From Kordia periserrulae (lineage in GTDB: Bacteria > Bacteroidota > Bacteroidia > Flavobacteriales > Flavobacteriaceae): a stretch of DNA of 64,000 nucleotides. Positions 5,927 to 62,700 of the stretch are shown here, piece after piece; position 1 is the stretch's first letter, and the number at the start of each line of letters is the position of its first letter. Below the pieces are notes generated by a model. It had not been told where the DNA came from, did no database searches, and saw nothing but the letters and a program-made list of their open reading frames with translations. The position numbers were made by a program, and so were the translations under genes. Location of the stretch: NCBI RefSeq assembly GCF_003054265.1, contig NZ_QBKT01000004.1, forward strand, positions 1 to 64,000. The letters run 5' to 3'.

Positions 5927-5976
5927 GCGAAGCTCTGTCAAAAAATCAAAAAGTAATCAGAAGAAAATTTAGCTTA

Positions 5977-12500: not shown

Positions 12501-15179
12501 GATTACAAAGATTACGCAGCTTGGCAAAACAAAGCCTTGCAAACAGAAACACTTGCAGCACAAGGCAACTACTGGAAACAACAGCTTTCAGGAAACATTC
12601 CGTATTTAGAATTGCCTAGAGATTACAATACAGCGATAAAATCAAATCAAACGATTTCAGGCTATCATACCATCTTTATTTCCAACGAAATCAAAGAAAA
12701 AATCACAGCTTTTACGGCGAAACATTCGGTAAGTCCGTTTGCGTTTTATTTGACCGCGATAAAAGTCTTATTGCAACGACTAACAGCAGAAAACGACATT
12801 ACCGTCGGAATTCCAGCGGCAAATAGAAATCACGAACAACTCAAAAATATAGTCGGTTGTTTCTTAAATACGTTGATGATTCGTGATGAAATGGACGCTT
12901 CCGCAGATTTTACAACGATTCTGCAAAAGGTAAACACAACACTCATTGCTGCATTGGCAAATCAAAACTATCCGTTTGAGCAATTGCTAGACGATTTAGA
13001 TATTACGGCTGAAGACAAACGTTTCCCGATAAGTCCTGTGTTCTTGAATATGCTTGATTTTGAAGCAGAAACTACGGCTAAAATTCAAGATTTTACAGCG
13101 CAAACAGGAACAATTGAAGCATCGCCAAAATTCGATTTGGAATGGTATATTCAAAGCTTTGAAAACGGATACATGCTCAAAAGTGTGTTCAATAGCGAAC
13201 TTTTCTCAAAAGAAACCATTACCTATTGGACGAACGAATTGCTACAGCTCATTCAGCAAGTAGTTGAAAATACGGCGATACACATTTCAGAAATTGACAT
13301 TTTCAACACAAACATCGAAATCGCGACAGATGCAATGCCAACCAATGCTTTTGAAGTATTTGAAGCATCAGAAATTGAACAAAATGTCACTGCACGATTT
13401 GAAAAGCAAGTTTCAAAATATCCAAACGCGATTGCAGTTCATGCTAAAAACAAAGCAGTAAGTTATGCCGAATTAAACGCGCATGCAAATCACGTAGCAC
13501 ATCAAATTCTAGCAGAAGCTACCGCAGCAACGCAGCGAATTGCGTTATTATTAGATCATGATGAAACCTGTGTCATCGGAATGTTAGGAACACTAAAAGC
13601 AGGCTATTCCTATGTGCCGATTGACGTAAACAATCCGAATAGCAGAATCACCTTTATTCTGGAAGATGCGAGTGCGAATATTTTAGTGTGCAACCAACGT
13701 ACATTACAAAAAGCACAAGAAGTACAAGCAGACTATCCAGCGGTAAAACTCATCTGTTTGCCAGAAGAAGTTACGGAAATTGAAAATCCTAACAAAACAA
13801 TTGCGCCAAGCACAGAAGCGTATGTATTATACACGTCAGGTTCTACAGGAAAGCCAAAAGGTGTGGTGCAAACGCAGCGAAATATGTTGCATTACATTCG
13901 CGTATATACGAACAATGTGCACATTTCCAACCAAGACAATCTCAGCGTATTCTCAACCTATACGTTTGACGCGTCAATCAAAGATATCTATGGAGCTATC
14001 TTAAACGGCGCAACGGTAAGTTTCTACAATATTGCGGCAGAAGGTGTTGCGAATATTCAAAACTGGCTTGCTACACAAAAAATCAGCATCATTCACATGG
14101 TGCCAACCTTGTATCGTTACTTCATCAAAGAATTGGAGCCATCAAGCATCTTACACACGGTTCGTTTGTTGGATTCTGGTGGAGAAGCGAGTTACAAATC
14201 GGATTTGGAATTGTTCAAAAAACATTTCCCGAAAGGCGCCTTTTTAGTAAACGATTACGGACCGACAGAAGCAACGATTATCTCGCAAAAATTCTTGTCA
14301 CACGACTCAGCATGGCACCGAACGAATTTATCTTTAGGAAAACCTGTTGTAGACACGGAAGTATATATTTGGGATGAAAACAATACGGAAGTTGGCATGT
14401 ATCAGGAAGGCGAAATCGTATTCAAAAGCGACTATATTTCGCTTGGTTACTTGAATCGTCCAGAATTAACAGAAAAAGCATTCTTAACCGATGAAAAAGG
14501 ACATCGTTATTACAAATCAGGAGACATCGGACGTCGATTGTCCAACGGAGAAATTGAATTTTTACATCGAAAAGATTCACAAGTCAAGCTAAATGGTGTC
14601 CGAATAGAATTGCCAGAAATCGAATATCAACTAGAACAATTGCCAAGTATCAAAAAAGCAATCGTTTTGGTAACTGAAGTAGAAGAAATAAAATTCTTAA
14701 CAGCATATCTTGAAAAAACAGAAAACATAGAAGCCGACGCGTTAAAGCAACAACTCAGAAACCAACTGCCAAAGTACATGATTCCTTCTATCTACATGTT
14801 TATTGAAGCATTTCCGCTGACGCGAACAGGTAAAATAGATAGAAAAGCCTTGCCACAACCAACAATGGCAGACCTCAAAAAAACACCGTACAAAGCGCCA
14901 CAAAGCGATATGGAATTCCGTATGGTAGAACTTTGGGCAGATATCTTAAAAATTGCTGCCAGCACAATAGGTGTTAATGATAACTTCTTTGAACTTGGCG
15001 GACACAGTTTGAGCATGAACAAAATGCTCAACCAATTAAAAACAACATACAAAGTAAACTTCAATTACGAAGAATTTTACGCACAACCAACCATCGCCTA
15101 TTTGGTAGTACACATTGAAAACGTATTGGCAACACAAATGGATACTACACAAACAGTAAACAAAAAAATCATCATATAA
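6519..15179 (+). CDS. NRPS 1, loading and modules 1-3: (C)-A-T-C-A-T-C-A-T
   Basis: A 2886-residue non-ribosomal peptide synthetase that probably starts the chain. Residues 1-230 resemble only the C-terminal half of a condensation domain (DYWIQKLKK onward) and lack an HHxxxDG motif, as in some initiating modules. There is no lipid-starter C domain. A1 has YTSGTTGKPKG near 366 and pocket residues D-L-Y-N-N-A-L-T, an alanine-type code. T1 carries its serine at 750. C1 has HHIIGDG at 936. A2 (core near 1399) reads D-A-W-A-L-G-N-V, one change from the leucine code DAWFLGNV. T2 serine is 1782. C2 has HHSICDG at 1958. A3 (core near 2435) reads D-A-K-H-D-G-D-I, which I cannot assign. T3 serine is 2830. 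The protein ends in VNKKIII, a likely docking tail for NRPS 2, whose ATG follows after three bases. Confidence 0.95.
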   Translation: MPTIERKLVSDYWIQKLKKQTVSAKEQFQLETTEKLLIPNENISYFLKITNEKPIVEYTILLSIYSAMLQRYFEPSHFIFSTKVQDAETPLLLHHILIEKKNFKEYLNETKLEIQEVYKYASFEKDAVLPQKFKNYSPFGFSYNTSVEQNEIPFFLEINKEVKGITLAIRFAESFKKSHVVTHFLKNFQTCLENLESNLEKIICDISITTREEEDIILKAFNDTNYDFPLEESIIDLFEKQVEKTPNNTALVFQEKSYTYKELNEEANALAHYLVDERNIQVNDFVGVKLERTELLVISLLAVLKTGAAYVPIDKSYPAERIQYIENDSQCKLVIEEELDFFNNNKQYATENLGIQKDAHDLAYIIYTSGTTGKPKGVMITHQNAVAMIYWAHHEFANTGHEVTFAVTSHCFDLSVYEIFYTLSTGKRIRLLQNSLDIGTYILEDKNILINTVPSSMRNLLEKGYSLENVVAVNLAGEPFPVDIAMKLLADSDAEIRNLYGPSEDTTYSTYYQLEEGIRYNSIPVGKPLLNTQAFILDENLAVVPIGVPGKLYLSGLGVTKGYLNREELTAEKYIPNPYLEGERMYDTGDLAYWMPDGNIGFLGRKDHQVKLRGYRIELGEIENEMLDFTDAIQRVVVAVKLVNKQQVLVGYYVGDKGVDKSGLRAHLLAKLPSYMVPTYFVHIKDIPLTPNGKINRDALPEISTDNIIKAEYVAPRNDVEEQLKEIWEKIIGVDTIGIKDNFFELGGHSLMISQVINTMYKEMGKSVSFKTFSVNPTIENLSAELNEKQYEAIPVAAEATSYPLTPAQHRLWLLSQLEGGTNAYQITGAYHFKGNLDDEIFINAFTNVVKRHESLRTYFKENEHGIPQQYIVPFEAIDVSIAQIDFSQKEQPETFIDAYIDDLLSEGFNLATTPLFKAALIKKTATETIFVVAIHHIIGDGWSLEIFTNEIIDNYLQASKGITSDKASLDIQFKDYAVWLQQSQTVERLEASKAFWLQQFSGELPVLQLPQSRKRPVIKTYSGSQIRYTYSREHLTKLKNFSKEHQVTLFMTIMAAVKALLHKYSNADDIILGTPIAGREHPDLENQIGLYLNTLAIRTQIQHDETLASLLEKEKAQLLNAYTHQEYPFDQLVEQLGLKRDTSRSPLFDVMVALQNQQQLGNFKEQSLGELTVDAYEIERTAAQFDITYTFVEVDEELFLEVQYNTDVYDTTFIKSSCEHLELIFEQYLEDATQKINSIDITSPEEKVQLLEAFQGKEVPVAENANVLSLFAEQVVKNGQNTSITVEETNVSYHELNAQSDRLAVHIQNTTAIVKGAIIAVQLDRGIDYITSLLAIMKLGATYLPIDTNYPENRISYMIQDAGAVLVIDTNFIESYHNASIDTGGFTAATLGGNDIAYVIYTSGSTGKPKGVPISQRSLVNLCQWHQAAYGVTSESRATLFSGIAFDASVWEIFPYLTKGATLFPITSKEVRLDIFKFKNFLNHNKITHAYVPSRICQELVANDVDDVSTILLTGGEALSFNKTTSLHIYNNYGPTENTVVTTFHKYTNSEKGNIAIGKPVDNTKVYVLSDELTLQPIGVVGELCIAGIGLSEGYLHQEALTNTVFVKNPFNSEEKLYKTGDLVRWLPNGTLEFSGRKDTQIKIRGHRIELGEIEQAITDFAEIKEAVVLVKIVQKEKVLVAYYIAENEINTATFKERLLAEMPSYMIPQYYIPIDAIPLTPNGKVAVAQLPEISETHSIQATYIAPRTETEEMLVTIWKDFFNKEKISVLDDFFELGGHSLILTKLINAYHKVFNVRLSLEDVYVKTSLESHAILLDSGTKVQYEEIEKIAEQEVYELSPTQVRFWLIHKIQGASKEFNISNIFDLEKETDIDVLEAAFNEILQRHEILRTVFVDAIEAPKQRIEAFQPTTIKRYDTVETITNEVIQHEFDLESYPLFKIGTLTNGEETKLYFNIHHSICDGWSMQIIIKELLTIYQAKLEKATAALPALTIDYKDYAAWQNKALQTETLAAQGNYWKQQLSGNIPYLELPRDYNTAIKSNQTISGYHTIFISNEIKEKITAFTAKHSVSPFAFYLTAIKVLLQRLTAENDITVGIPAANRNHEQLKNIVGCFLNTLMIRDEMDASADFTTILQKVNTTLIAALANQNYPFEQLLDDLDITAEDKRFPISPVFLNMLDFEAETTAKIQDFTAQTGTIEASPKFDLEWYIQSFENGYMLKSVFNSELFSKETITYWTNELLQLIQQVVENTAIHISEIDIFNTNIEIATDAMPTNAFEVFEASEIEQNVTARFEKQVSKYPNAIAVHAKNKAVSYAELNAHANHVAHQILAEATAATQRIALLLDHDETCVIGMLGTLKAGYSYVPIDVNNPNSRITFILEDASANILVCNQRTLQKAQEVQADYPAVKLICLPEEVTEIENPNKTIAPSTEAYVLYTSGSTGKPKGVVQTQRNMLHYIRVYTNNVHISNQDNLSVFSTYTFDASIKDIYGAILNGATVSFYNIAAEGVANIQNWLATQKISIIHMVPTLYRYFIKELEPSSILHTVRLLDSGGEASYKSDLELFKKHFPKGAFLVNDYGPTEATIISQKFLSHDSAWHRTNLSLGKPVVDTEVYIWDENNTEVGMYQEGEIVFKSDYISLGYLNRPELTEKAFLTDEKGHRYYKSGDIGRRLSNGEIEFLHRKDSQVKLNGVRIELPEIEYQLEQLPSIKKAIVLVTEVEEIKFLTAYLEKTENIEADALKQQLRNQLPKYMIPSIYMFIEAFPLTRTGKIDRKALPQPTMADLKKTPYKAPQSDMEFRMVELWADILKIAASTIGVNDNFFELGGHSLSMNKMLNQLKTTYKVNFNYEEFYAQPTIAYLVVHIENVLATQMDTTQTVNKKIII

Positions 15180-15182
15180 TTT

Positions 15183-18100
15183 ATGAAAACACCCGAACTC
15201 ATAAAACACTGTAGAGATAACGGAATTCACATTGAATTGCAAGGAGAAAACTTGGAACTCAATTTCCTTACGGAAGAAGTGGATAACGCTTTGATCGGAC
15301 TGATTAAAGAGCACAAAAGCGACATCATTTCCTATTTGACGTCGTTACAGCAAGATGCTGCTGCCATCACGATTCCACAAGCGGAAAACAAAGAATTCTA
15401 TCCGATTACCTCTACACAATTCAGATTCTGGATTTTATGCCAAATTGAAGACATCAACAAAGCCTACAATTTGCCAGTGGTCATAAAAATTAACGGTGAT
15501 TTACAAGTAGAAAATCTGCAAAAAGCAGTCAATACTATCGTGTCGCGTCATGAAGTATTGCGAACCAAATTTGTAGAAACAAGCAATGGTAAAATTGCGC
15601 AAACCATTCAAAATATCAGTGAGTTTGAAACGATTTTTAACTATGAAGAAGCAACACCTGAAACCTATAAATCTATTGTAAACTCGTATGTTTCGGATGC
15701 GTTTGATATTAAAAATGGACCATTATTTAGAGTTGGTGTTGTAAAAAGTCAAGCACAAGAATATTTCTTTTACTTAAACGTACATCACATCATTTCAGAT
15801 GCGCGTTCGCAAGAAATTTTGATTAAAGACTTCATCACAGCGTATAACAATACGACGGCTAATGCTGAAATAGCACTTCCAGAATTGCCAATTCAATACA
15901 AAGATTATGCAGATTGGTACACCAACAATCTCGAGCTTACCAAAGAAGAAGCCTATTGGTTGGATAAATTTTCTGGTGAACTTCCTGTGTTAAATTTGCC
16001 AAGCACATTTAAGCGTCCTCCATTAAAAACCTATAACGGAGCGCAGCACGAATTGATATTGAGCGACAGCACATTCCAAAACGTAAAAAAATACGCCAAA
16101 GCGCATGCGTGTACGCCATTTATGATATTACTATCTGCGTTAAATGGTGTCTTATCACGATACACTCACCAAACGGATATCATCTTAGGAACGCCTGTTT
16201 CTGGGAGAATGCATCCGGAATTGGAACATCAAGTTGGATTGTACATCAATACCTTGCCAATACGAACGACGTTTGAAAAAAATACAACGTTCAATGAATT
16301 GGTGGCGATTGAAAAACAATGCTTGCAAGAAGCCTACTTAAACGCAAACTATTCGTTTGGCGATTTGGTCAACAAACTCAACATTCAGCGCGATATCAGT
16401 CGTTCACCGATATTTGACATTCTAGTCACGCATCAACGACACGATGAGGTGGGTGAACTCAACGCTGGTTTTGGAGATTTGCAATATACCATTCAAAAAG
16501 ATGCAGAAGCGAGTGTGAGTAAATTTGACATGACGTTCAAATTTGTAGAAGGCGAAACGTCTATCAAACTGGTTATTGAATACAATACCGATTTATACGG
16601 CGCATCGTATATTGAAAATTTGGCAGAAAACACGTGGAGTTTCTTAGCAAACGGATTGGAAAATGGCAACGAAAAACTATCACAATTACCATATATTTCT
16701 GAAAATCAGCAACAAGAACTGCTTTCGACATTCAACAATACAAAAGTTGAGTACAACCAAGACGAATTGGTGACGGATTTAATCGCGCAGCAAGCCATTG
16801 CAAATCCTGACGCGACGGCTGTTGTATGTCAGGGCGTTGCTATCAGCTACAAAGAACTTCAAAAACAATCAGACATTTTTGCAAGTTACTTATTGAACAA
16901 AGGCATTCAGCCAAATTCATACATAGGAATTTGCATGGGAAGATCAATAGAAATGATGATTGCGATTTTGGGTGTGCTAAAAGCGGGAAGCGCGTATGTT
17001 TCGTTAGATCCTTTCTATCCAATAGAGCGTATCGATTACAGCTTGCAAAACAGCGGTTCGCAATTTGTTATTGTGGATGATGCTACCAACAATATCATCG
17101 GCGATAGTGCAGAAGCTATCAACATTACTGATACTACTTGGAAAGAAACCACTATGCAAACCTTGCCAAAAGTACTTCCTTCACAAACGGCGTATGTCAT
17201 ATACACTTCAGGATCTACAGGAAAGCCAAAAGGTGTGCAAGTAGCGCACAAAAATCTATTGAGTTTTGTGGTAGGAATGAATGAAAAACTTGGAAAAGAA
17301 GCCACAACATGGTTGGCAAGTACAAGTATCAGTTTTGATATTTCTATTTTAGAATTGTTATGGACGCTGACCAACGGAAACAAAGTTGTCATTCACTTAG
17401 AACGTCCTGTGGAAATCAAAACGAAGCCTGAAATGGACTTTAGTTTCTTTTACTTTCCAACATCAGACAGTCAAAGTACCAACAAATACAATCTTTTACT
17501 AAAAGGTGCCACCTACGCAGATGAACACGGTTTTAAAGCAATTTGGGTTCCAGAGAGACACTTTCACGAGTTTGGCGATCAATTTCCAAATCCGTCAGTA
17601 GCAGCGGCGGCAGTGTCAACCATTACAAAAAACATTCGTTTACGTTCTGGAAGTGTGGTATTGCCATTGCACGACGAAATTAGAGTGGCAGAAGAATGGT
17701 CAATGGTTGATAACTTGTCAAACGGTAGAGTAGAACTGTCTATAGCATCGGGTTGGCAACCAAACGATTTCGTGTTGCAACCTAACAACTTCAAGGACAG
17801 ACATCAAATCATGTTTGATAAAATTGACGCGTTGCAAGGTTTATGGAAAGGTGAAACACGCACACGAACTAATGGTGTTGGGAAAGAATTCGAATTCAAA
17901 ATTCACCCGAAACCAATTCAGCCAACCTTACCTTTGTGGATTACGGCTGCAAAAAGCATTCACACCTTCAAATACGCAGGTTCAATTGGCGCAAACGTTT
18001 TAACGCACTTATTGGGACAATCCATTGAAGATTTAGAAGACAAAATAAAAGCTTACCGCGAATCCTTACAAGAACACGGATTTGATCCAGCAAAAGGAAA

Positions 18101-19646
18101 AGTGGCGATTATGTTGCATACCTTCATTCACGAAGATGAAAACTACGTGTACAACACCGTTGAAAAACCATTCAAAGAATACCTGAAAACCTCGTTAGGC
18201 TTGTTGGTTCCTGTAGCGGAAAACAACAATATGGACATTGAAGACGACATGGATCAGGTGTTGGAAATGGGCTTCAAGCGTTATTACAATACGTCAAGTC
18301 TTTTTGGTACACCAGAAAAATGTTTGGATATGGTGAACAAACTGTATCAAGCAGGCATCAATGAAATCGCGTGTTTGCTAGACTTCGGTATTGAGGAAGA
18401 CGTTGTGTTAGACAATCTGTCAAACTTAAAGAAAGTAAAAGACATTGTAAAACGTAGCAGAACGCAGCAAGAATACATTGTAAGCAAGTTGCAACAATTG
18501 ACTCAAGAAGAAACTACCTTACAACTATTAAAAGCGCACAACATCAAAGCAATGCAGGCAACGCCATCTTTCTATGAAGATTTCTTGCTAACGGACAATG
18601 TTGATGCGGCTTTACAAAATATAAACTCTTTATTGGTTGGCGGAGAAGAATTGAAAAGCTCACTCGCTAAAAAACTAATCGATATTGTGGGAACGGAGCG
18701 AATCTACAACATGTATGGTCCGACAGAAACCACGATTTGGTCAGCGGTAAAACAAGTTGATTCGGCAGAAAATGTCACCATCGGAACACCTATTGCAAAT
18801 ACACACATCTACATTTTAGATGAAAACCAACAAATATGTCCAAAAGAAGTGGTGGGCGAATTGTGCATTGGCGGAGAAGGTGTATCGCAAGGATATTTGG
18901 GCGATAAAGCCAAAACAGACGAAAACTTTATCAAAAATCCAATCACAGGTGAAGGCATTATCTACAAAACGGGCGATTTAGCACGTTGGTTGCCAAATGG
19001 TGAATTGGAATATTTGGGCAGACGTGATAGTCAGGTAAAAATTAGTGGTTATCGTATTGAATTAAAAGAAATTCAGGCCGTAGCGGCTTCCATTTCAGGA
19101 ATTGTGCAATGTGTGGTAAAAGCCATTCGAGATGTTTCTGGCGATACCTTAGCGTTATATATCAAAGCGGACAAAGCACTTGAAACTGAATACATCAAAG
19201 ATTACTTGCGCGTACAATTACCAACCTATATGATTCCGCAGCATATCATTTTTGTGGATGAATTCAAATATACGCCAAACGGAAAAATAGATCCGAAGCA
19301 ATTACCAACACCAACCACAGATTCGGTTCAAACTAAAAATTACGTAGCACCGAGAAACAATTTCGAATCACAAATCGCAGAAATTTGGGAGCGTTTCTTG
19401 AATATTGAAAAAATAAGTATTGACGATAACTTCTTCGAAATAGGAGGAAACTCCATGAAAGCTTTTGAACTGCAAAACATTATGAATTCTACCTTAGGAT
19501 TGGAATTGCAAATCATTTCGTTTTTTCAATTTCCAACCATTCGTGTCTTAGCAGAAAGCTTGCAACAACACAACAAAACACCTGAATTGATTGAAGAAGA
19601 AATGGAAGACGTAGACGATGTAATTGATTTTATGGAAAGTCTTTAA
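15183..19646 (+). CDS. NRPS 2, module 4: TubC dock-C-A(monooxygenase)-T, glycine
   Basis: A 1487-residue synthetase. Residues 1-52 form a TubC-like docking domain (LIKHCRDNGIHIELQGENLEL). The C domain (about 73-510) has HHIISDA at 201-207, so the usual glycine after the aspartate is alanine. The A domain starts near 520, with YTSGSTGKPKG at 674 and FDIS at 718. It is then interrupted by about 340 residues of a luciferase-like monooxygenase (751-1090) and resumes to YGPTETTIW. Pocket residues across the insertion read D-I-L-Q-L-G-M-I, a glycine code. The carrier serine is 1424 (EIGGNS). The module therefore probably loads glycine and oxidises it, for example at the alpha carbon or nitrogen. 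The C-terminus is acidic (DVDDVIDFMESL), unlike the synthetases that feed another C domain, and the next protein is a polyketide synthase. Confidence 0.95.
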   Translation: MKTPELIKHCRDNGIHIELQGENLELNFLTEEVDNALIGLIKEHKSDIISYLTSLQQDAAAITIPQAENKEFYPITSTQFRFWILCQIEDINKAYNLPVVIKINGDLQVENLQKAVNTIVSRHEVLRTKFVETSNGKIAQTIQNISEFETIFNYEEATPETYKSIVNSYVSDAFDIKNGPLFRVGVVKSQAQEYFFYLNVHHIISDARSQEILIKDFITAYNNTTANAEIALPELPIQYKDYADWYTNNLELTKEEAYWLDKFSGELPVLNLPSTFKRPPLKTYNGAQHELILSDSTFQNVKKYAKAHACTPFMILLSALNGVLSRYTHQTDIILGTPVSGRMHPELEHQVGLYINTLPIRTTFEKNTTFNELVAIEKQCLQEAYLNANYSFGDLVNKLNIQRDISRSPIFDILVTHQRHDEVGELNAGFGDLQYTIQKDAEASVSKFDMTFKFVEGETSIKLVIEYNTDLYGASYIENLAENTWSFLANGLENGNEKLSQLPYISENQQQELLSTFNNTKVEYNQDELVTDLIAQQAIANPDATAVVCQGVAISYKELQKQSDIFASYLLNKGIQPNSYIGICMGRSIEMMIAILGVLKAGSAYVSLDPFYPIERIDYSLQNSGSQFVIVDDATNNIIGDSAEAINITDTTWKETTMQTLPKVLPSQTAYVIYTSGSTGKPKGVQVAHKNLLSFVVGMNEKLGKEATTWLASTSISFDISILELLWTLTNGNKVVIHLERPVEIKTKPEMDFSFFYFPTSDSQSTNKYNLLLKGATYADEHGFKAIWVPERHFHEFGDQFPNPSVAAAAVSTITKNIRLRSGSVVLPLHDEIRVAEEWSMVDNLSNGRVELSIASGWQPNDFVLQPNNFKDRHQIMFDKIDALQGLWKGETRTRTNGVGKEFEFKIHPKPIQPTLPLWITAAKSIHTFKYAGSIGANVLTHLLGQSIEDLEDKIKAYRESLQEHGFDPAKGKVAIMLHTFIHEDENYVYNTVEKPFKEYLKTSLGLLVPVAENNNMDIEDDMDQVLEMGFKRYYNTSSLFGTPEKCLDMVNKLYQAGINEIACLLDFGIEEDVVLDNLSNLKKVKDIVKRSRTQQEYIVSKLQQLTQEETTLQLLKAHNIKAMQATPSFYEDFLLTDNVDAALQNINSLLVGGEELKSSLAKKLIDIVGTERIYNMYGPTETTIWSAVKQVDSAENVTIGTPIANTHIYILDENQQICPKEVVGELCIGGEGVSQGYLGDKAKTDENFIKNPITGEGIIYKTGDLARWLPNGELEYLGRRDSQVKISGYRIELKEIQAVAASISGIVQCVVKAIRDVSGDTLALYIKADKALETEYIKDYLRVQLPTYMIPQHIIFVDEFKYTPNGKIDPKQLPTPTTDSVQTKNYVAPRNNFESQIAEIWERFLNIEKISIDDNFFEIGGNSMKAFELQNIMNSTLGLELQIISFFQFPTIRVLAESLQQHNKTPELIEEEMEDVDDVIDFMESL
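17433..18452 (+). other. Luciferase-like FMN monooxygenase inserted in glycine A domain
   Basis: Residues 751-1090 of NRPS 2 begin MDFSFFYFPTSDSQS and continue with GFKAIWVPERHFHEF, RLRSGSVVLPLHDEIR, EEWSMVDNLSNGRVELS and SGWQPNDF. This is the pattern of the secondary-metabolism branch of luciferase-like FMN monooxygenases (MupA/Atu3671 type). The insertion falls between A-domain motifs A4 (FDIS) and A5 (NMYGPTE). Similar oxygenases sit inside the glycine A domain of MtaG in myxothiazol assembly, where glycine oxidation leads to a terminal amide. Here the module is internal, so the oxidised glycine should be passed on to a KS. Edges are good to about 15 residues. Confidence 0.9.
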
Positions 19647-19694
19647 ACCCAACAATAACAACACACCAATACACCTAAACTTTTATAGCGCAAC

Positions 19695-22600
19695 ATGAAG
19701 AGAGACATCGCTGTCATAGGGATTTCTGGGAAATTCCCCAAGTCTACTAATGTCCAAGAATTTTGGAAAAACTTAGTAGACGAAAAAGAATTAGTTCACT
19801 TCTTTACGGATGAAGAACTACTTTCAAGAGGAATTGATGCCAAACAACTAAACGACAGCTCCTACATAAAAGCGGCTTCTTTTATAGACACGTACAACAC
19901 GTTTGATTACTCGTTTTTCAAATACACTCCAGACGAAGCCAAATTGATGAATCCGCAAACGCGATTAATGCATCAATTGGTTTGGGAAGGCATTGAAGAC
20001 GCTGGATTGAACTTAGATACATACAACAAAAAAGCAGGTATCTTTTTAGGAGCGAATCGCGATTTAAACTGGAGCGTGTATGCAACATTGGCAGAAGCTG
20101 GAAATGTGGATGCGATGACAAAAGCAAAAATCACGAATCCAAACTTTATGGCATCGTTAATTGCGTACAAGATGAATCTGCGCGGTCCGTGTTATTTTAT
20201 CGACACAGCTTGCTCTACGTCACTAAGTACGGCACATTTGGCATGCAGAAGTTTACTGTTGAACGAATGCGGAACGGCAATTGTCGGTGGTGTTCGCTTA
20301 TTATCACATCATGATAATGGTTACTTGTATGAACCTGGAACGATTGTATCGGAAGATGGAAGCGTACGTAGTTTTGACGCGTCTTCGTCAGGAACCATCT
20401 TTTGTGATGGTGCCGGTGTTGTGGTTTTGAAAAAACTAGAAGAAGCCATCAAAGATAACGATCATGTGTATGCGGTGATCAAAGCTTCTGCGATGAATAA
20501 TGATGGAAGCGCTAAAGGCGGATATACCATGCCTAGCGTGAGTGGACAATCGGAATGTATCAAATTGGCACACAAAATTGCAGGTGTACAACCTACAGAC
20601 ATTACCTATGTAGAAGCGCACGGAACTGCCACAAAAATTGGCGATCCTATAGAAATAGAATCGCTCAACAAAGCATTTAACAATGATAGTACACACAAAT
20701 GCGCTATCGGAACGGTGAAGTCAAACGTAGGCCATGCCGATGAAGCTGCGGGAATTTTGGGACTTATCAAAACGACGCTTTCTATCAAAAACAAAACAAT
20801 TCCAGCAAGTTTGCATTACAATAAAGCCAATCCTGCGATTAATTTTGCGGGCGGACCTTTTTATGTAAATACTAAAACCACTGCTTGGAATCGCATCAAC
20901 AACAAACCCTTAACGGCGGGAATCAGCTCGTTTGGAATTGGCGGAACTAACATTCACATGGTATTGCAAGAAACACCAATCGGTGTGCAAAAAATCGCCA
21001 CTCCTGAAGCATCGTATCAAATCAGATATTCAGCGGATAGTCTTTCAGCATTGGAAAACTTTGAAAAAGCTTTACTCGCGCACATTCATGAACATCCAAC
21101 AGTAAACTTAGGCGCGCTGGCTTATACCTTACAAGTAGGAAGAAAACAATTTGGATTGTGCAAAGCGTTTGAAGTGAAAACCAAAGCAGAACTGATTGAA
21201 AAACTCTCTGACAAAAGAATAAAAACCAAAGAAGTCAAAGAAAAGCAAGACTTGATATTTATGTTTTCTGGGCAAGGTAGTCAGTACGTTGGCATGGGGA
21301 AATTTCTATACGAGCACTTTTCTTCGTTCAAAACTACGATGGACGATGGTTTTGCAACACTATTTCAAATCAACGGAATCGATTACAAAGCAATTTTATT
21401 CGATACTGCGGATACAGAAAAAATCAACGAAACAAAATACACACAACCCATCTTATTCTTATTTGAATATGCATTGGCAAAACTCTTTATTGAGCTCGGA
21501 TTACAACCAAACGCCATGATTGGTCACAGTTTGGGCGAATATGTAGCAGCAACCATCAGTGGCGTATTTACGTTGGAAGACGCGCTTCAAATTCTGTGCA
21601 AACGCGCCAATTTAATGTACACGGTTGCAAAAGGAAGCATGTTGAGTATCAGTGCTAACAAAGAAACACTTGATAAAGCGTTATTTGCGAATGTATCAAT
21701 TGCAACCATTAACTCACCAAATTCCTTTGTAGTTTCTGGAACGGATGATGACATTCAGAAAGTTGTCAATGAATTACAGGCAAAAGACATTCAACATGTA
21801 GTGCTAAAAACATCACACGCGTTTCATTCTTCCATGATGGAAGCCATTGTGGCAGAATTTGAAACAGCACTTCAAAAAATCACGCTTCAAGCACCAACAA
21901 TTCCGTTTGTATCTAACAATTCTGGCGAATACATTACAACAGAAGAAGCGAGTTCAGCAAGTTATTGGGCAAAACACATTGTAAATACGGTCGATTTCAA
22001 AAAAGGAATTGAATTCTTGCAACAACAAAACAACGGATTGTTCTTAGAAATCGGCCCAGGAAGAACATTGACGACATTTTTCAACCAATGCAATACAACT
22101 GGCGACAAAAATGTAGCGATTAATACGATTAAACATCCAAAAGAAACGGTTGACGAGCGTACGCACTTCTTGCATCTTTTAGGACAAATTTGGCAGCACA
22201 AGTTTGACATTGATTGGAATGCATTCTACCAAGGAAACATTCCAAGTAAAATAGCATTGCCAACCTATTGTTTTGATACGTACGACTTTCCAACGAAAGT
22301 TTCTATTGACGAGCAATTAAAAAGTCAAAACATCAACTTAGGCGCAGAGCAACCAACAAGCACTTTACAAGTCGCAACGTGGAAACAGGAAACCAAAGTA
22401 TTTGAAACACCTAAAAATTTTGTAGGTAAAACATACATCGTGTTTTGTGATGAAAGCAACGTAAACAATGAACTCATCGCTTTATGGAAACTAAATGACA
22501 TTCAGGTAATTACGGTGAAGAATGGTGCGGAATTTAAACAAATTTCTGAAACACAGTATCAAATCAATCCGACTGAAAAAAGCAGTTTAGAAGCACTAAA

Positions 22601-24077: not shown

Positions 24078-24098
24078 CCCATACATCAAGGTATCAAT

Positions 24099-30620: not shown

Positions 30621-30631
30621 TCTCAACCATA

Positions 30632-33970: not shown

Positions 33971-34050
33971 AAACAAACGCTACACCATTTCAACATAAAA
34001 AACCAAAAATACACACGTTGACTTACCATCATTCGTAATAAAAATACACC

Positions 34051-43770: not shown

Positions 43771-43811
43771 ACAAACAATAGTTACTACCAACCAAAACAA
43801 AAAAGACTCAT

Positions 43812-51638: not shown

Positions 51639-51641
51639 ATT

Positions 51642-54600
51642 ATGCAAGATTTTATTAAAAAACTATCAAATCTAGACATTCACTTACTGCTAGATGATGG
51701 CAATATAAAAGTACGTCACAACGGAAATTTGACCGACGACATAAAGGCTGAAATTCGTGAACACAAAGCAAATGTGATAGCGTATTTGCAGTCCAAACGA
51801 ACCTCTGCCACTTTTCAAGCGATTGAAAAAGCGCCAGCAATGGAGTCGTATCCGTTATCGTCAGGACAATATCGTTTGTGGGTAATTCAAAACATGAATC
51901 CAAACTCAGGAGCGTACAATATGCCTGCTCAACTAATGTTAGATGATTCGTTTGATATCGAAATCATGGAAAAAGCAATTCTGGCAACAGTTGAGCGTCA
52001 CGAAATTTTGCGAACGGTTTTTAAAGAAAATGCTGAAGATGAAATTCGCCAGTGGATTCTTCCTGTTTCAGAAGCGAATTTAGATATCAAAACCCTCGAC
52101 TATACCAACGAAGCAAACAAATATCAAAAAACGCAAGACTATTTCAATACAGACAAAAACAAACCATTCCATCTAGAAAAAGGGCCGTTATTTAGAATAG
52201 TCTTTATCAGACTCTCTGAAAAAGAATGTTTCTTTTACTACAACATGCATCACATTATCAGCGATGGTTGGTCGTCTAATATCATTACTGAAAACATTTT
52301 AGGGTTTTATCACACCATAAAAACAGGAGAAAATGTAGTTGCCGATACGCTTCCAATTCAATACAAAGACTATGCATACTGGCAAAAACAGCAATTGCAA
52401 AGTGAAGCCTATGAAGCGCATAGAAACTACTGGAAAGCACAATTTGCAAAAGAATTGACACTAATCGATTTGCCAACAAACAAGGTTAGACCAGCGTTTA
52501 AAACAGATAATGGTCATCACTTAAAAATAAACTTTACTGCCGATATCGCACAAAAAATAACAGAAACTTTCCAAAAAAATGGCGGAAGTCTCTTTATCGG
52601 TTTAATGTCTGCATTTCAATTCTTATTACACAAATACACAGGTGAAAAAGACATCGTTATCGGTTCGCCAATTGCTGGAAGAGATCACAAAGATTTAGAA
52701 CAACAAATAGGTTTTTACGTGAATACACTTGCCATACGCAGTGAAATTGAAACAGCGCAAACGTATTTGGAATTTTTCAATACGGTCAAAGCAAACATTC
52801 TTAATGCGTACAAGCATCAAGCCTATCCTTTTGACGAATTGGTACAAGAACTCGATTTAAAAAGAGATGTAAGTCGCAACCCACTATTTGATGTGTCACT
52901 TGCCATCGAAAACGCAGATATCACTACGGTAGAACACGGACGCTTTTCGCAAGAAGCAGGAAGTGTCATTGACTTAGGAGCGAACAAAGCAAAATTCGAC
53001 ATCATCTGTAAAGCGCAAAAAATGGGCGATGCGTTATGCCTAAATATCATTTTCAATTCAGATGTGTATGAAGTGCCGCTCATGCGCCAATTTGCGACGC
53101 ATTTCTCAACATTTTTGATGGAAATGGAATCGCATTTACAAACAAAAATTGAAGACATTCAACTGATTTCGTCGGAAGAAAAAGAGCAATTATTACAAAC
53201 GTTCAACGATACTAAGGTTGATTATGAAGCTAACAAAACCATCTTGGATTTCTTTCAAGAAAATGTAGCAAAAACACCAAATGCCAAAGCAATTACGTTT
53301 GAAAATAACTCGTTAACGTATGCTGAATTGGATGAAAAATCAAATCAATTGGCAAATGTCTTGTTAGCAAAAGGAATTTCAAAAGGAGACTTTGTACCAC
53401 TTTGTATAGAGCGCTCGTTGGAAATGGTGGTTGGAATAGTGGCAGTGCTCAAAACAGGAAGTGCGTATGTACCCATCGGAACCGATTATCCTGCACAGCG
53501 AATCAACTTTATCTTAAAAGAAATCAACGCGAAACTGTTGCTAACCACTCAAAAAACGGCATCAAATCTAACAAGTGCTGTTGACGTATTGGCTATTTCG
53601 CTTAAAAATCTTTCAGACGCTTCCGCAGAAATGCCAAAGATGACCATTTCACCAGCAGACAATGCGTATGTTATCTACACTTCTGGAACGACAGGAAATC
53701 CAAAAGGTGTCGTCAACGGACACGCAGGTTTAGTAAACCGTTTGTTATGGATGAAAGATGATGTAGCTATTGATAACACGTCGGTTTTACTACAAAAAAC
53801 ACCATACACGTTCGATGTTTCTGTATGGGAATTACTCATGGGAACCATCGCAGGAAACGAATTGGTCATTGCAAAACCTAATGGTCACAAAGATCCGTTC
53901 TATCTGCAAGAAATCATTCAAGAAAAAGCAGTTACGTTAGTACATTTTGTACCTTCCATGTTGGCAGCTTTTTTGGAAAGTGTATCAGAAGTAACTTTTG
54001 CAAACTTAAAACATGTAGTATGTAGTGGAGAAGCATTATCTGCAAACATTGCTAACGATTTTAAAACAAAACTTCCAACGGTTGAGTTACACAACTATTA
54101 CGGACCCACAGAAGCCGCAATTGATGTCACAGCTATCAATTTGTCAAATGTTGCAGTTACTACCAATGTAAGTATTGGTGCGCCAGTAGCAAATACACAA
54201 ATTTACATTGTAGATGAAGCGTTGCAACCACAACCAATTGGGGTATATGGCGAATTGCTCATTGGTGGCGTACAAGTAGCAAAAGGTTATCTAAATCGTT
54301 CAGAATTAACTACTCAAAAATTCATTCCAAATCCTTTTAAAGCAGATGAAACTGTCTACAGAACGGGCGATTTGGCGTGTTGGAATGCAGATGGAACCTT
54401 ACAATTTAAAGGAAGAATTGACGATCAAGTCAAAATAAAAGGCTATCGTATTGAACTTGGCGAAATTGAGCAAGTCATTCAAGAAATTGAAAACATTCAA
54501 AAAACGGTTGTCAAAGTACATACAACGGAAACAGGAGATGAACTTGTGGCGTACATAGTAGCAGACACAGAAATTGACCGAAAAGCCATTCAAAATGTAT

Positions 54601-57600: not shown

Positions 57601-59588
57601 ACACATATCGATTTGACACAGCATTTATTAAAAATACGTTGCAACATCTCAAAAACATTGCAGCGGCTTTTGTGGCAAATCCAACAGAAAAAATAGCGGA
57701 CGTAGATTATATATCAGAAGAAGAAAAACAACAGCTACACCATAACTTATCTGGAGTTGAAATTCATACAAATGATACTACTACAGTTATTGATTTATTT
57801 GAACAACAAGCCATGACAACTCCAGAAAGTGTAGCGCTTCAATATGAGGAGAAACAGCATACGTATGCTGAACTGCAAAAAATGAGTACAGCGTATGCAG
57901 CGTTTTTACAACAAGAACATCAAATTGACAAAGGCGATGTTGTGGGCATTTATCTCAATCACAGCGATTGGACATTGGTGGCGATTTTAGGAATCCTAAA
58001 AGCAGGCGCTGTATTTGTGCCAATCCAAGCATCGTTGCCAGATGACCGAAAAGCGTTTATGGTAGAAGATACCAACATGAAATTGCTTGTTACAGAAACA
58101 AATTACATGTTTGAATTGGATTTCTACGATGGAAATATGACCGCGATTGATGTAGAATTTGAAGCAAGCGAATTTGAAGGAGAAACCATCACAACAACAG
58201 TAACCGAAGAAGATTTGGCATACATTATCTATACATCAGGTTCTACAGGATTGCCAAAAGGTGTACAAGTCGGACACAAATCACTTCGCAATTACATTCA
58301 GTGGAGCAAGCAAAGCTATCTGACAGACGATTTGGCAAACTTTGATTTCGGATTGTTCACTTCATTAGCATTTGACTTAACCATTACAAGTTTGTTCTTG
58401 CCAATTGTTAGCGGCGGAAAATTAAATGTATTCAACGATACGGATGAAATCAGTACAACCTTACAAAAATACTTAACGTCGGGCGCAGCATGTATCAAAC
58501 TTACACCAGCGCACATCAGTTTAATGACAACGTTAATTCCAACGTCTTTAGATACAAACATTCAAATGGCAATTGTCGGTGGCGATGCATTGCAAAGCAC
58601 ACATGTAGAAACCTTGCAACAACTCAATCCTGCGATTCGAATTTACAACGAATACGGACCAACGGAAGCTACCGTAGGTTGTATTGTAAAAGAAATTGCT
58701 GACGCTAATAACATCACTATTGGAAAGCCAATTGCGAATACGGATATCTACATTTTAGACCAAAACCTGCAGCTAGTACCAAAAGGAATTGCTGGAGAAA
58801 TCTGTATTTCGGGAACTGCGTTGGCAAAAGGATATCTCAATCGAGCTGACCTTTCGGCGGAAAAATTCATTGAAAATCCTTTCGACAAAACGGCTAAACT
58901 CTATAAAACAGGCGATTTAGCGGTATTGGCTGAGAATAACGAACTCATCTATTTAGGACGTGTGGACAATCAAGTAAAAATAAATGGTTTCCGAATTGAA
59001 TTGGGTGAAGTAGAAGAAAACATTCAGGCCATTGAAACTATTAACTCTTGTATTGTCATTGCGCAAAAAACTTCGGAAAATCAGCTAAAGTTGATTGCAT
59101 ATTTTACCGCTTCCGCAGAAGAAAACATTGAACAGTTAAAAGAGGTACTTCGACAAAAACTGCCAGAATACATGATTCCGAGTTACTTTATGCAATTGGA
59201 AACCATGCCATTGACAACCAATGGTAAAATTGACAAAAAACAATTGCCAAATCCTGCAAACGGTGCCATGTTATCGCAAGTAGATTACGTAGCTCCAGCA
59301 AACGATGAAGAAGCGCGAATGACAAATATTATTCACCAACTCATCGGAATTCCGGCAGACAAAATTAGTACAATAGCCAACTTCTTTGACTTGGGAATCA
59401 ATTCCTTAGAATTAATGAAGTTGCAACACATGATTCGCACAGAGTTTCAAACAGAAATACACATTACCACATTGTTTGAACATACAACCATCAAAGATTT
59501 AGTGGCACATACATTCCATACACAAGAAGAAGTAGAAGAAGTCAATATTTCAGATGCAATTGATGATACGTTGGACGAATTATTTTAA
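51642..59588 (+). CDS. NRPS 7, modules 14-15: TubC dock-C-A-T-E-C-A-T, D-serine then asparagine-like
   Basis: A 2648-residue synthetase. A TubC-like dock (1-50, FIKKLSNLDIHLLLDDGNIKV) precedes C1 (HHIISDG at 203). A1 (core near 679) reads D-V-W-H-V-S-Y-I with D next, a serine code. T1 has GGDSIKSI with serine 1069 and is followed by the only epimerisation domain in the window (HHLVIDG at 1247, EGHGRE, FNYLGDFG). C2 starts YRLAPLQQGIYF and has HHILMDG at 1723, a proper D-donor type. A2 (core near 2197) reads D-L-T-K-I-G-E-V, asparagine-like. T2 is odd: LGINSLEL, with isoleucine for the second glycine before serine 2588. The C-terminus is acidic (VNISDAIDDTLDELF), like NRPS 2 and unlike the others, and the next protein again begins with a bare KS. 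A 116-base gap with a hairpin follows. Confidence 0.95.
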   Translation: MQDFIKKLSNLDIHLLLDDGNIKVRHNGNLTDDIKAEIREHKANVIAYLQSKRTSATFQAIEKAPAMESYPLSSGQYRLWVIQNMNPNSGAYNMPAQLMLDDSFDIEIMEKAILATVERHEILRTVFKENAEDEIRQWILPVSEANLDIKTLDYTNEANKYQKTQDYFNTDKNKPFHLEKGPLFRIVFIRLSEKECFFYYNMHHIISDGWSSNIITENILGFYHTIKTGENVVADTLPIQYKDYAYWQKQQLQSEAYEAHRNYWKAQFAKELTLIDLPTNKVRPAFKTDNGHHLKINFTADIAQKITETFQKNGGSLFIGLMSAFQFLLHKYTGEKDIVIGSPIAGRDHKDLEQQIGFYVNTLAIRSEIETAQTYLEFFNTVKANILNAYKHQAYPFDELVQELDLKRDVSRNPLFDVSLAIENADITTVEHGRFSQEAGSVIDLGANKAKFDIICKAQKMGDALCLNIIFNSDVYEVPLMRQFATHFSTFLMEMESHLQTKIEDIQLISSEEKEQLLQTFNDTKVDYEANKTILDFFQENVAKTPNAKAITFENNSLTYAELDEKSNQLANVLLAKGISKGDFVPLCIERSLEMVVGIVAVLKTGSAYVPIGTDYPAQRINFILKEINAKLLLTTQKTASNLTSAVDVLAISLKNLSDASAEMPKMTISPADNAYVIYTSGTTGNPKGVVNGHAGLVNRLLWMKDDVAIDNTSVLLQKTPYTFDVSVWELLMGTIAGNELVIAKPNGHKDPFYLQEIIQEKAVTLVHFVPSMLAAFLESVSEVTFANLKHVVCSGEALSANIANDFKTKLPTVELHNYYGPTEAAIDVTAINLSNVAVTTNVSIGAPVANTQIYIVDEALQPQPIGVYGELLIGGVQVAKGYLNRSELTTQKFIPNPFKADETVYRTGDLACWNADGTLQFKGRIDDQVKIKGYRIELGEIEQVIQEIENIQKTVVKVHTTETGDELVAYIVADTEIDRKAIQNVLMQKLPDYMVPRLFMQIDEIPLNVNGKADKKKLPTPTEFATIEETYVAPTTAEEKAFTEVLRTVLKRDKVGIKDNFYNMGGDSIKSIQIVSKLKQSGFTIKVEEILRNPIVEDVAKLLRKEVRIIDQSAVSGEVILTPIQEKFFAEMRVPSHFNQSVMLKSEEAIHEGIVTKVMHDLVTHHDALRMRYHHENGKWTQYNEAIAANHVEITSHDVSETAHPLQEMGTIGDSLQSSINLENGPLCKVAIFKLKDSYRIAFIVHHLVIDGVSWRILLEDFITLYTAYHTNQTVVLPQKTDSFQYWAAQQQAYANSTKIQNEIKYWEKTCAQEIPAFYVEFEHEEKPTPVRKTASTQLDASVTDAVKTKIHNVYHTEVNDILITGLGLALKDVFGQEKCVIEMEGHGREDIVENIDVSRTIGWFTTMFPYVLEVPFDNAERQLVHVKDSLRNIPNKGIGYGMLHYLSNTKLPEIAPAILFNYLGDFGSSVGDTNTENNTNALFEYASEYAGNSIDANNNWKSHLEVSGMIASDQLNLSITYDASEYSAEKINSLLAAFERHITQLVAALVVEKQEYTTASDLTYKGLTYDTLQNLNVDNNVEDIYRLAPLQQGIYFTWLSQIAPEIYFEQTYYKLNGVRFDIDNLQKAYELLIQRHAILRTSFTSSHSEDPLQIVWKKVPIHFTHEALYDKGFTAEERKNYVDSVKKADRQKGFNLEEPSQMRLHVLDFGNEGYEFIWSHHHILMDGWCVSILINDFYQLLNDLTNHRETTLAPPVKYANYIEWLDGVDKQASLQHWKAYLANYEEKVHLPYTKQGFDINAYEELKEFTVIDGELHTQITKLCQELGITQNVFMQTVWGYVLSRYNHTSDAVFGLVVSGRPAAIPNIEEILGLFINTIPVRINYQAEETIAETLIKAHKAALESADHHYLNFSEVNAQCDLGAELIDHIMVFKDYLVQEQVTENDQNAFENSVVEDTQILERNNFQYNIEVIPSARGIRVDINYNTYRFDTAFIKNTLQHLKNIAAAFVANPTEKIADVDYISEEEKQQLHHNLSGVEIHTNDTTTVIDLFEQQAMTTPESVALQYEEKQHTYAELQKMSTAYAAFLQQEHQIDKGDVVGIYLNHSDWTLVAILGILKAGAVFVPIQASLPDDRKAFMVEDTNMKLLVTETNYMFELDFYDGNMTAIDVEFEASEFEGETITTTVTEEDLAYIIYTSGSTGLPKGVQVGHKSLRNYIQWSKQSYLTDDLANFDFGLFTSLAFDLTITSLFLPIVSGGKLNVFNDTDEISTTLQKYLTSGAACIKLTPAHISLMTTLIPTSLDTNIQMAIVGGDALQSTHVETLQQLNPAIRIYNEYGPTEATVGCIVKEIADANNITIGKPIANTDIYILDQNLQLVPKGIAGEICISGTALAKGYLNRADLSAEKFIENPFDKTAKLYKTGDLAVLAENNELIYLGRVDNQVKINGFRIELGEVEENIQAIETINSCIVIAQKTSENQLKLIAYFTASAEENIEQLKEVLRQKLPEYMIPSYFMQLETMPLTTNGKIDKKQLPNPANGAMLSQVDYVAPANDEEARMTNIIHQLIGIPADKISTIANFFDLGINSLELMKLQHMIRTEFQTEIHITTLFEHTTIKDLVAHTFHTQEEVEEVNISDAIDDTLDELF
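54995..56320 (+). other. Epimerisation domain of module 14
   Basis: Residues about 1118-1560 of NRPS 7. It opens with ILTPIQEKFFAE and contains HHLVIDGVSWRI (catalytic histidine pair at 1247-1248), EGHGRE, DVSRTIGWFT and FNYLGDFG, the ordered motifs of NRPS epimerisation domains. All look intact. It should give a mixture of L- and D-seryl thioester, from which the following D-donor condensation domain takes the D form. It is the only E domain in the window. Confidence 0.92.
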
Positions 59589-59652
59589 AAATAACAATCA
59601 AACCAAAAAAATTAGTGACATAGCGCACTACACAAACCTATAAATTCAAAAG

Positions 59653-59678
59653 GAAAAATACACTTACAAGTATTTTTC
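59653..59678 (+). other. Intercistronic hairpin between NRPS 7 and PKS 8
   Basis: GAAAAATAC (59653-59661) and GTATTTTTC (59670-59678) form a perfect 9-base stem with an 8-base loop (ACTTACAA). It lies in the widest gap of the operon after the antiterminator gene, 65 bases past the NRPS 7 stop and 26 bases before the PKS 8 start. The stem is AT-rich with a T-rich 3' arm. It could be a weak pause or attenuation site, an RNA processing site, or chance. Confidence 0.4.
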
Positions 59679-59704
59679 AGTTGAATGACAACCAGCACTT
59701 TACA

Positions 59705-62700
59705 ATGAAAAAAAGTAACGTAAAAGATATAGCTATAGTCGGTATGGCTTGCAATTTTCCTAAATCGGAGAGTATTACCCAATTTTGGGACAATCTTCGA
59801 AATGGAGAAGATTTGGTACATACATATTCCGACGAAGAATTAAAGCAATTTGGAATAGAAGAAGCTCTCATCAAAAACCCAAACTTTAAACGAATAGATG
59901 CCAAAGTTGACAACGCCGAGGAATTCGATTTTTCTTTTTTTGGATATACGCAAGGAGAAGCTCAAATCATGGATCCGCAATCAAGAATGATGCACCAAGT
60001 CGTATGGGAAGCATTGGAAGACGCATCAATCGATACAAAAACATATAAAAATGATATTGGATTGTACGTTGCTGCCGCTAATAGCTATAACTGGTTAAAC
60101 TATACTCGGTTAAATCCAAGTAAAGACGTAGATACCTTTTTTACAAGACGTTTAGGAGATAGTCAATTCATCAACACGCTTATCTCTTACAAACTCAATC
60201 TTACGGGACCAAGCTTAAAAATAGATACTGCTTGCTCAAGTTCATTAGTAGCAATTCACTTGGCATGTAGAAATTTACTATTGAGAGAATGTACCATTGC
60301 AATTGCTGGCGGCATAAATATTAACACGATTGATAACAAAGGATATTTCTACGAAGAAGGGATGATATACTCCAAAGACGGACGCTGTAAACCTTTTGAC
60401 AAAAACTCTTCAGGAACTATCGGCGGAGAAGGTGCTGGTGTCGTTGTGTTAAAACGTATGGAAGATGCGTTGCGCGATAAAGATCATATTTATGCAGTGG
60501 TTAGAGCTTCGTCTGTAAATAACGACGGAAATACGAAAATTGGATATACAGCGCCAAGTATTGTAGGACAATCAAAATGTATCACTAACACCTACAAATT
60601 TGCCAATATTGAACCCAAAAGTATCAACTATATTGAAGCACACGGAACAGGAACACAATTAGGCGATCCTGTAGAAGTGGCTTCGTTAAACAAAGTATTT
60701 AAAGATGCAAAAGGTCACAAATGTGCTTTAGGTTCTGTAAAATCGAACATGGGACATTTAGATACTGGAGCTGGTGTTGCAGGATTCATCAAAGCGTCTT
60801 TAGCATTGTATCATGAAGAAATTCCACCAACATTACATTTCAATGAAAAAAATGAAAACGTTGATTTTGCTTCAGGACCATTCTACGTTAACAATACGTT
60901 ACAAAAAATGGTGCGTTCCAACGGTTCTCCATTGCGTGCTGGCGTAAGTAGTTTGGGAATAGGAGGAACCAATGCACACATTCTATTAGAAGAAGCTCCA
61001 GAAATAACGGCTGATAAAAAACTAAGAAAACACGAGCTAATTACCTATTCAGCAAAAACTTCTGCGGCGTTGCATCGTTACAAAGCAAAACTCAAAGACT
61101 TTTTAGCAACCATTGATGAAACGCAACTTGCAAACGTAGCATACACCTCCAAAACTGGTCGTACAGAATTCAATGTACGCGATTTTATTGTCTGTGATAC
61201 TACTACAAATGGAATCAAAAACTTAGAAAAGAATATTGAAACCAACACCAAAAATTCACTCTCAGGAAACAAAAACATCATTTTTATGTTTCCAGGTCAA
61301 GGAAGTCAATTTGTGACCATGGGGAAAACGCTCTATCAAGAAGAAGCGATATTCAAATCTGTGATGGATACTGGTTTTGCATGGCTTCAAGCGCATCTAA
61401 AAGAAGATTACAAAGCAATTATTGGCTATACTGATAACACTTCCGTAGATGTGTCTCAGATTAACCATACGATATACACACAACCCTTATTGTTTTTAAT
61501 CGAAGTTGCGTTGGCAAAATTACTCATGAGTTGGGGAATTCAGCCTTCGCAAATGATTGGTCATAGCTTGGGCGAATATGCTGCTGCTTGTATTGCAGGT
61601 GTATTTTCACTAGAAGATGGATTAAAACTCATCACCAAACGTGCAACATTGATGCAAGCGTTGCCAAAAGGAGATATGTTGGCTGTTGGCGAAACGGCAG
61701 AAGCAATCGCGCTTATATTGCCAAAAGAACTTTCGATTGCTGCTATAAATACTAGTGATTCATGCACAGTTTCTGGAAATCCAGAAAGCATTGCGGCATT
61801 TGAAAAACTGTTAGACGCACAAGAAATATCGTTTAAAAAATTACACACATCACACGCGTTTCACTCAGAAATGATGGATGAAATGTTGCCAGCGTTTGAG
61901 AAAGAATTGCAAACCATTCGTTTCTCCAATCCAACAATTCCTTTTATTTCAAATCGTACAGGAAAAGAAATTACTGCTACAGAAGCCACGACTCCTCAAT
62001 ACTGGACAGAACACATTCGTAATACAGTACAATTCAACAAAGGGTTACAAGAATTAACCAAAAAATACAACGGAATTTATTTAGAAATTGGTCCTGGTAC
62101 AACGCTTTCGTATTTCGCAAAACAGCAAAAAAGCTTTAGAGACAAAACAAATACGGCTGTTCAAACCATGAGTCATCCAAAAAAGCAAGAAGAAGACAGT
62201 TTTGTACTTGCCAATGCGTTGGGAACATTGTGGAGTCAAGGAATTTCCATTGATTGGAAAGCGTATTACAATAATGAAATACTGTATAAAATTCCGTTAC
62301 CAACTTACAGTTTTGAACCATACAAGTTCCCTGCACGAATCAATTTGAAAAAATTATATGCACAATTAGGAATGGCGCAAAATGCTGCTACAAGCACACA
62401 AAACGATTTATTTTATGTGCAAAATTGGAAAAAAACCTTTCAATCTAAAAAAGCAGCGATTTCAAAAGACAAACAAACGTATCTTCTCTTTTCAAACGAA
62501 ACTCCGTGTAGTAATGCAATCAAAGAATCGTTGCTAGCTTCTGGTAATGTAGTCGTTGAAGTTATGAAAGGAGATACATTTCAAAAACTGAGTGATGTTC
62601 AGTTTGCAATGAATCCAACAAACGCAGAAGAGTATCAACAACTATTTAAAGCCTTAACGAACGAAGTTGAAGTTGATACAATTTTGTACACATGGGATAG

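Follow-up and report, generated by a model that had tools for sequence, protein, structure and literature searches.

Tail classes in the assembly line

The DNA analysed here (the window; bases 1-64000 of contig C4 in the 4.7 Mb genome of Kordia periserrulae) covers most of a hybrid nonribosomal peptide synthetase/polyketide synthase (NRPS/PKS) line, which begins at 6519 and continues beyond the window to ~80 kb. The proteins of this line rather likely use two C-terminal docking signals, chosen according to which domain opens the partner protein: a short linear motif (SLiM) for a beta-hairpin docking domain (bHD), or an acidic helix directed to a bare ketosynthase (KS). The genes follow the order NRPS 1, NRPS 2, a PKS, NRPS 3, NRPS 4, NRPS 5, hybrid 6, NRPS 7 and a further PKS (Table 1). 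An earlier sequence-only reading had noticed that the tails sort by the type of the next protein. This observation was confirmed and the two-class pattern is real, while the interpretation given to it is, overall, partly supported. The eight tails that it quoted were present letter for letter, namely NKKIII, NEIFI, NEVII, ETFEF, NEIEL and YEDII before TubC-like starts, and DVIDFMESL and DAIDDTLDELF before KS starts.

The six proteins said to open with a TubC-like docking domain were all found to do so. In the genome search, TubC_N (PF18563) matched at all six starts with 27.2-53.8 bits, above the cut-off; in a scan of the whole proteins, three matches exceeded the curated Pfam cut-off of 26 (27.1, 47.6, and 43.5) and three fell below it (24.2, 22.8, and 19.6), the latter being therefore divergent members of the family. 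A condensation (C) domain came next after TubC_N in each of the six. Both donors with acidic tails, NRPS 2 and NRPS 7, finish in a PP-binding (thiolation, T) domain, and both of their acceptors open with a ketoacyl-synt domain. The KS cores of these acceptors start after residues 4 and 8, which leaves no space for an N-terminal docking domain.

For comparison, TubC_N was searched in 299 family-level and 395 phylum-level genomes, and KSs were searched in 299 family-level and 11 genus-level genomes plus the 80 best of 528 named loci. A junction was defined as two neighbouring genes with a gap of at most 1500 bases, the upstream protein ending in a T domain. Duplicates were removed before counting, and in the final set the downstream protein opened with TubC_N at 68 junctions and with a KS at 65; a further 35 junctions led to other genes. 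The KS set was collected by similarity to Bacteroidota KSs and beside TubC_N genes, so other KS types are under-sampled.

SLiM tails and TubC_N domains

Tails before TubC_N ended in the pattern hydrophobic-x-hydrophobic in 60 of 68 junctions, whereas shuffling of the tails gave an expectation of 7.8 and no more than 17 in any of 2000 rounds, and the last residue was hydrophobic in 67 of 68. The same ending occurred at only 3 of the 65 KS junctions, one of them (L151) an acidic helix, and at 13 of the 35 other junctions, partly in SLiM-tailed NRPSs that are followed by a tailoring gene. Within the window the pattern was strict in five of the six tails and failed in YEDII at position -3. The claim that tail class follows the next protein without exception thus held for 8/8 junctions in the window, YEDII being taken loosely, but not among the relatives, where 8 of 68 TubC_N junctions (YEDII counted) departed from the strict pattern and two KS junctions carried SLiM-like tails. 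At the next junction, past the window, gene 59681-64162 ends in TTIKI and the next protein, at C4:64190, starts with TubC_N; elsewhere in the genome (C14 and C15), the tails KMTI, LEFEI, and IIKI precede TubC_N starts.

Binding of short C-terminal peptides by TubC-like domains, cited in the sequence-only reading, is established biology, described as SLiM-beta-hairpin docking in the accessible text of PMC6195595 and PMC9113145. Covariation of tails and docks across related clusters, which that reading had proposed as a check, was found in the charges and in the published register. An open scan of 448 cells gave the register first (global max-statistic p 0.045; within-cluster 0.0015). The best of 108 registers was antiparallel and joined tail positions -2 and -4 to columns 20 and 22 of strand beta-2, respectively (z -6.5, 60 non-redundant pairs), a test that reused the pairs of the open scan and is therefore not independent. 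When partners were shuffled within clusters, 0 of 20000 shuffles of the 60 pairs reached the observed charge pairing (p <= 5e-5), and 1 of 20000 reached it after removal of the four non-Bacteroidota loci. In an alignment to Kj12B, columns 20, 22, and 24 correspond to positions 24, 26, and 28, and the accessible text of PMC6195595 places salt bridges between position 24 and tail -2 and between position 28 and tail -4. The covarying columns therefore map to the published salt-bridge region, as in the known SLiM-bHD code.

The charges at -4/column 22 in the window were K/E at the first junction, E/K at four others, and T/K at the junction 30632->34051, which has E/K instead at -2/column 20. Among the four pairs with E/K at -4/column 22, three have no charge at -2; in the fourth (34051->43812), two E residues face each other at this position. 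In a tethered AlphaFold2 (AF2) model joining the PKS 19695 tail to the bHD of NRPS 3, a strand was formed at the last five tail residues, 91-95, at modest confidence (mean predicted local distance difference test, pLDDT, of 52 for block 91-100).

By this covariation and by analogy with the published systems, a partner that opens with a bHD-C unit would be joined as follows: the five C-terminal donor residues would align with strand beta-2 of the bHD as an additional beta strand, hydrophobic anchors would hold this strand in place, and the charges at -2 and -4 would pair with beta-2.

Charged tails at KS junctions

The net charges of donor tail and acceptor stub were opposed over the KS junctions (Spearman -0.78). 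The signs were opposite in 58 of 59 scorable junctions (tail/stub -/- 1, -/+ 25, +/- 33, and +/+ 0; 6 of 65 junctions with one charge of zero are omitted), and in 27 of 28 scorable junctions when KSs were limited to <60% identity (n=33, 5 zeros). Permutation of tails within the seven genomes with both signs (16 junctions, loci assigned to genomes by hand) gave p 0.005, or 0.011 after removal of one near copy. In G494, both tail signs occur at consecutive NRPS-to-KS junctions of a single cluster.

The acidic tails were helical-amphipathic, with a mean helical-moment z of 1.70 and values >1 in 22 of 28; the other tails gave means of -0.14 (basic, 5/37 >1) and -0.36 (SLiM, 8/68 >1). Their alignment follows approximately [DE]x-Phi-S-x-x-Phi-D-[DE]-Phi-Phi-[DN]-Phi-Phi, and the acidic helix motif was found in 21/65 KS junctions and 0/103 others, the motif being drawn from the same tails. 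On the acceptor side, 21 of the 28 KSs that follow acidic tails, and 0 of the 37 that follow basic ones, have [KR][KR][DS] directly ahead of the core; this pattern, too, was derived from the junctions in which it was counted. The wider pattern [KR][KR][DES] was present in 1 of 66 internal KSs, a control set collected by profile (an earlier set of 8 was too small). In the window, gene 19695 has the full pattern (MKRD), and the stub of gene 59705 (MKKSNVKD) is basic with one K before D. The KS core started at most 25 residues from the protein start in 61 of the 65 junction KSs.

All acidic tails among the named loci of the sample belonged to Bacteroidota. In other phyla and in some Bacteroidota, donor tails were rich in lysine and arginine and the KS stub was acidic or neutral. 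As a separate observation, the residue before the active serine of the last T domain was N or T in 26/28 acidic-tail donors versus 15/68 SLiM donors. T-KS linkers within one protein (L187, L165, L208, and L195) contain RAQRR- or RAEKR-like basic stretches; they resemble the free basic tails seen in other phyla, as though these had arisen by the splitting of such linkers.

These sequence comparisons show the class rule and complementary charges at KS junctions, and the acidic tail may reasonably be proposed as a docking class for the step from NRPS to KS. With a bare KS as partner, the donor T domain would be extended by a linker and then by ~13-15 residues of acidic amphipathic helix. This helix may rest against the start of the KS near basic residues, most often a pair immediately preceding the first core strand; this putative contact would hold the T domain close to the KS. 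More broadly, though only tentatively, the NRPS-to-KS handover may form a docking class of its own, in which the bare KS N-terminus recognises a short charged tail of the donor T domain, in either of two opposite polarities. The acidic helix with basic stub would then be a Bacteroidota form, and the basic tail with acidic or neutral stub would be the form sampled in cyanobacteria, proteobacteria, Chloroflexota, and others.

Points against the scheme and alternative explanations

Several results weigh against the two-signal scheme. For the SLiM signal, four of the six window pairs share the same E(-4)/K(column 22), one of them also with E(-2) versus E, so the charges distinguish the first and possibly one further junction rather than all six, and a SLiM code that alone sets the protein order is ruled out. 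The accessible text of PMC13324335 describes a line that worked in vivo without its SLiM and a bHD that also grips the carrier protein; tails may accordingly matter less than their conservation suggests. For the KS signal, an AF2 model of a T-tail-linker-KS fusion (30 alignment rows) gave a tail helix at pLDDT 37-47 without confident docking. The pairing of acidic tails with KSs proposed in the sequence-only reading is backed by comparative charge and motif evidence, but not by this model. The KS and T domain were well modelled, three of the five models were poor overall (54-65), and the fold was that of a monomer, unable to reveal binding at the KS dimer face; since the SLiM control chain was four times shorter, the contrast between the two models is suggestive at most. 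In addition, [KR][KR][DS] is missing from 7 of the 28 KSs that follow acidic tails, including the second KS of the window and TGLE/TGME types. SLiM-like tails occur at KS junctions in G096 (KITI) and G195 (KIAF), L131 is negative on both sides (its KS is not bare and has a longer N-terminal region), and L147 has a KS with a KK stub without a T-ended donor directly upstream.

The phylogeny of the KSs also counts against the scheme. All 21 [KR][KR][DS] stubs lie in a single KS clade of 23 (support 95/85), which holds 23 of the 28 acidic-tail junctions; shared ancestry thus accounts for much of the tail/stub pattern. Independent contrasts numbered two to three, as expected or tied, and are too few for significance. 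Together with the undocked tail in the AF2 model, these results speak for a rival explanation in which only the SLiM signal docks, and the acidic tail and KK stub were passively inherited from one ancestral T-KS pair that spread in Bacteroidota. We consider this unlikely, though it deserves serious attention: the amphipathic helix pattern of the tails has been kept although their letters diverge, the rarity of the KK stub in internal KSs argues against it, and the tail matches the KS in genomes with both kinds (p about 0.01).

An acidic helix derived from a different docking system appears improbable. It would be a donor helix like that of communication-mediating (COM) domains, taken from the tail of an epimerization (E) domain and now bound elsewhere, to the KS or the next C domain. 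A TPSDF-type end is a hallmark of COM domains, and three donors among the collected sequences have such ends (G000:C14:60139-66585, G096:C1:107177-113617, and G532:C16:107839-118959). Two of the three end in ISQNELD[DA]LFS, by eye like the acidic KS tails, and for two of the three the protein immediately downstream has a C-domain-like start; G000, G096, and G532 may hence contain a third docking type. The donors studied here, however, finish in a T domain rather than an E domain, and the acceptor is a KS rather than a C-domain hand. Many bacterial genes have lysine-rich starts, and the KK stub could likewise be a gene start that aids translation rather than docking, which we regard as very improbable. 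The KK pair lies 5-6 residues from the start Met in 15 of the 21 KK stubs, and position therefore poorly separates the docking and translation readings in these; in the other six, at 1-8 residues from Met, the pair still abuts the core, and none of the 37 bare KSs after basic tails, same-genome ones included, has the stub.

Relation to known docking systems

The SLiM junctions resemble the TubC/EpoB/Kj12/Bamb_5915 type in having TubC_N before a C domain, a donor tail of ~5 hydrophobic and charged residues, antiparallel pairing with beta-2, and charge pairs at the published positions. No difference in kind was seen; the Bacteroidota examples show both charge polarities, and the accessible text of PMC6195595 describes reversed polarity in some SLiM-bHD systems. 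The KS junctions were likened by domain order to the EpoB/EpoC-type NRPS/PKS junction, in which a T-domain donor also passes to a KS. A 2025 comment, in its accessible part, separates the epothilone NRPS/PKS docking elements from the five types of PKSs with cis-acting acyltransferase (cis-AT; PMC12284057). The cis-AT types 1a, 1b, and 2 and the four-helix docking of trans-AT PKSs are alike in a C-terminal donor helix and in charge matching at the KS entry; they differ in having a helical N-terminal domain before the KS, which the window KSs are too close to their protein starts to carry, and bundle docking of either kind was thus rejected for these junctions. COM domains share, by eye, a short acidic amphipathic donor helix, but they join E to C and the junctions here join T to KS. 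A COM pair was rejected on the domains that end the donors and start the acceptors. In PAX three-helix docking, the acceptor NRPS carries an N-terminal docking helix; this type was rejected as well, the acceptor here being a bare KS.

As a related precedent, the accessible text of PMC6117356 describes PKS-to-NRPS junctions with charged tails of either sign, and that of a 2024 review treats NRPS-PKS interactions as an open problem (PMC11907408). No description of an acidic-tail class before bare KSs was found in a survey of open-access papers, mostly by title and abstract, subscription journals and bioRxiv lying outside the scope of the search.

Features of the window and neighbouring genes

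The coordinates of the junction features are listed in Table 1. The start codon of NRPS 4 is better placed at ATG 30632 than at 30575, and that of the last PKS of the window at ATG 59705 than at 59681.

Table 1. Docking tails, docking domains, and KS stubs along the assembly line (aa, amino acids)
Feature	Protein	Coordinates	Strand	Remark
SLiM tail KKIII	NRPS 1, 6519-15179	15162..15176	+	K(-4)/E(beta-2) charge pair with next bHD
TubC_N/bHD	NRPS 2, 15183-19646	15195..15338	+	29.3 bits in genome search; 24.2 in whole protein, under cut-off
Acidic amphipathic tail	NRPS 2, 15183-19646	19584..19643	+	last 20 aa, net charge -10; one of the acidic tails scored for helical moment
Basic N-terminal stub MKRD	PKS 19695-24077	19695..19706	+	directly abuts KS core, without docking domain
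SLiM tail NEIFI	PKS 19695-24077	24060..24074	+	beta strand in tethered AF2 control
TubC_N/bHD	NRPS 3, 24099-30620	24102..24251	+	profile match
SLiM tail NEVII	NRPS 3, 24099-30620	30603..30617	+	read in sequence
TubC_N/bHD	NRPS 4, 30632-33970	30635..30787	+	profile match; start revised from 30575
SLiM tail ETFEF	NRPS 4, 30632-33970	33953..33967	+	read in sequence
TubC_N/bHD	NRPS 5, 34051-43770	34063..34218	+	matched in sequence to docking domains of solved structure (AerJ, TubC, EpoB, Kj12)
SLiM tail NEIEL	NRPS 5, 34051-43770	43753..43767	+	read in sequence
TubC_N/bHD	Hybrid 6 (NRPS-PKS), 43812-51638	43824..43967	+	27.2 bits in genome search; 19.6 in whole protein, under cut-off
SLiM tail YEDII	Hybrid 6 (NRPS-PKS), 43812-51638	51621..51635	+	not strict hydrophobic-x-hydrophobic
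TubC_N/bHD	NRPS 7, 51642-59588	51645..51791	+	profile match
Acidic amphipathic tail	NRPS 7, 51642-59588	59526..59585	+	last 20 aa, net charge -9
Basic stub MKKSNVKD	PKS from 59705	59705..59728	+	no docking domain; KK not adjoining KS core

The adenylation domain of NRPS 2 contains a luciferase-like monooxygenase domain (protein residues 753-1060). Immediately upstream of the line lies a NusG-family gene (5905-6504), which might serve this long operon as its own antiterminator, and an AraC-family regulator is encoded further upstream (3592-4752). Just past the window edge, NRPS 64190-67579, with the SLiM-like tail VDILEI, is followed by a gene for a CmlA-type diiron beta-hydroxylase (C4:67627-69231; L009:8627-10231) and then by a TubC_N NRPS. 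In G494 and G532, too, SLiM-tailed NRPSs are followed by proteins with CmlA-like N-terminal letters, the domain scan covering the C4:67627-69231 protein only.

Implications

The SLiM signal of this line is known biology, and the acidic-tail signal looks like a little-studied handover between enzyme types. If true, a charge-polarised tail of this kind would offer a compact, portable connector for engineered hybrid lines and a cue to predict protein order. Where both forms adjoin, as in G494, opposite polarity could separate the KS entries.

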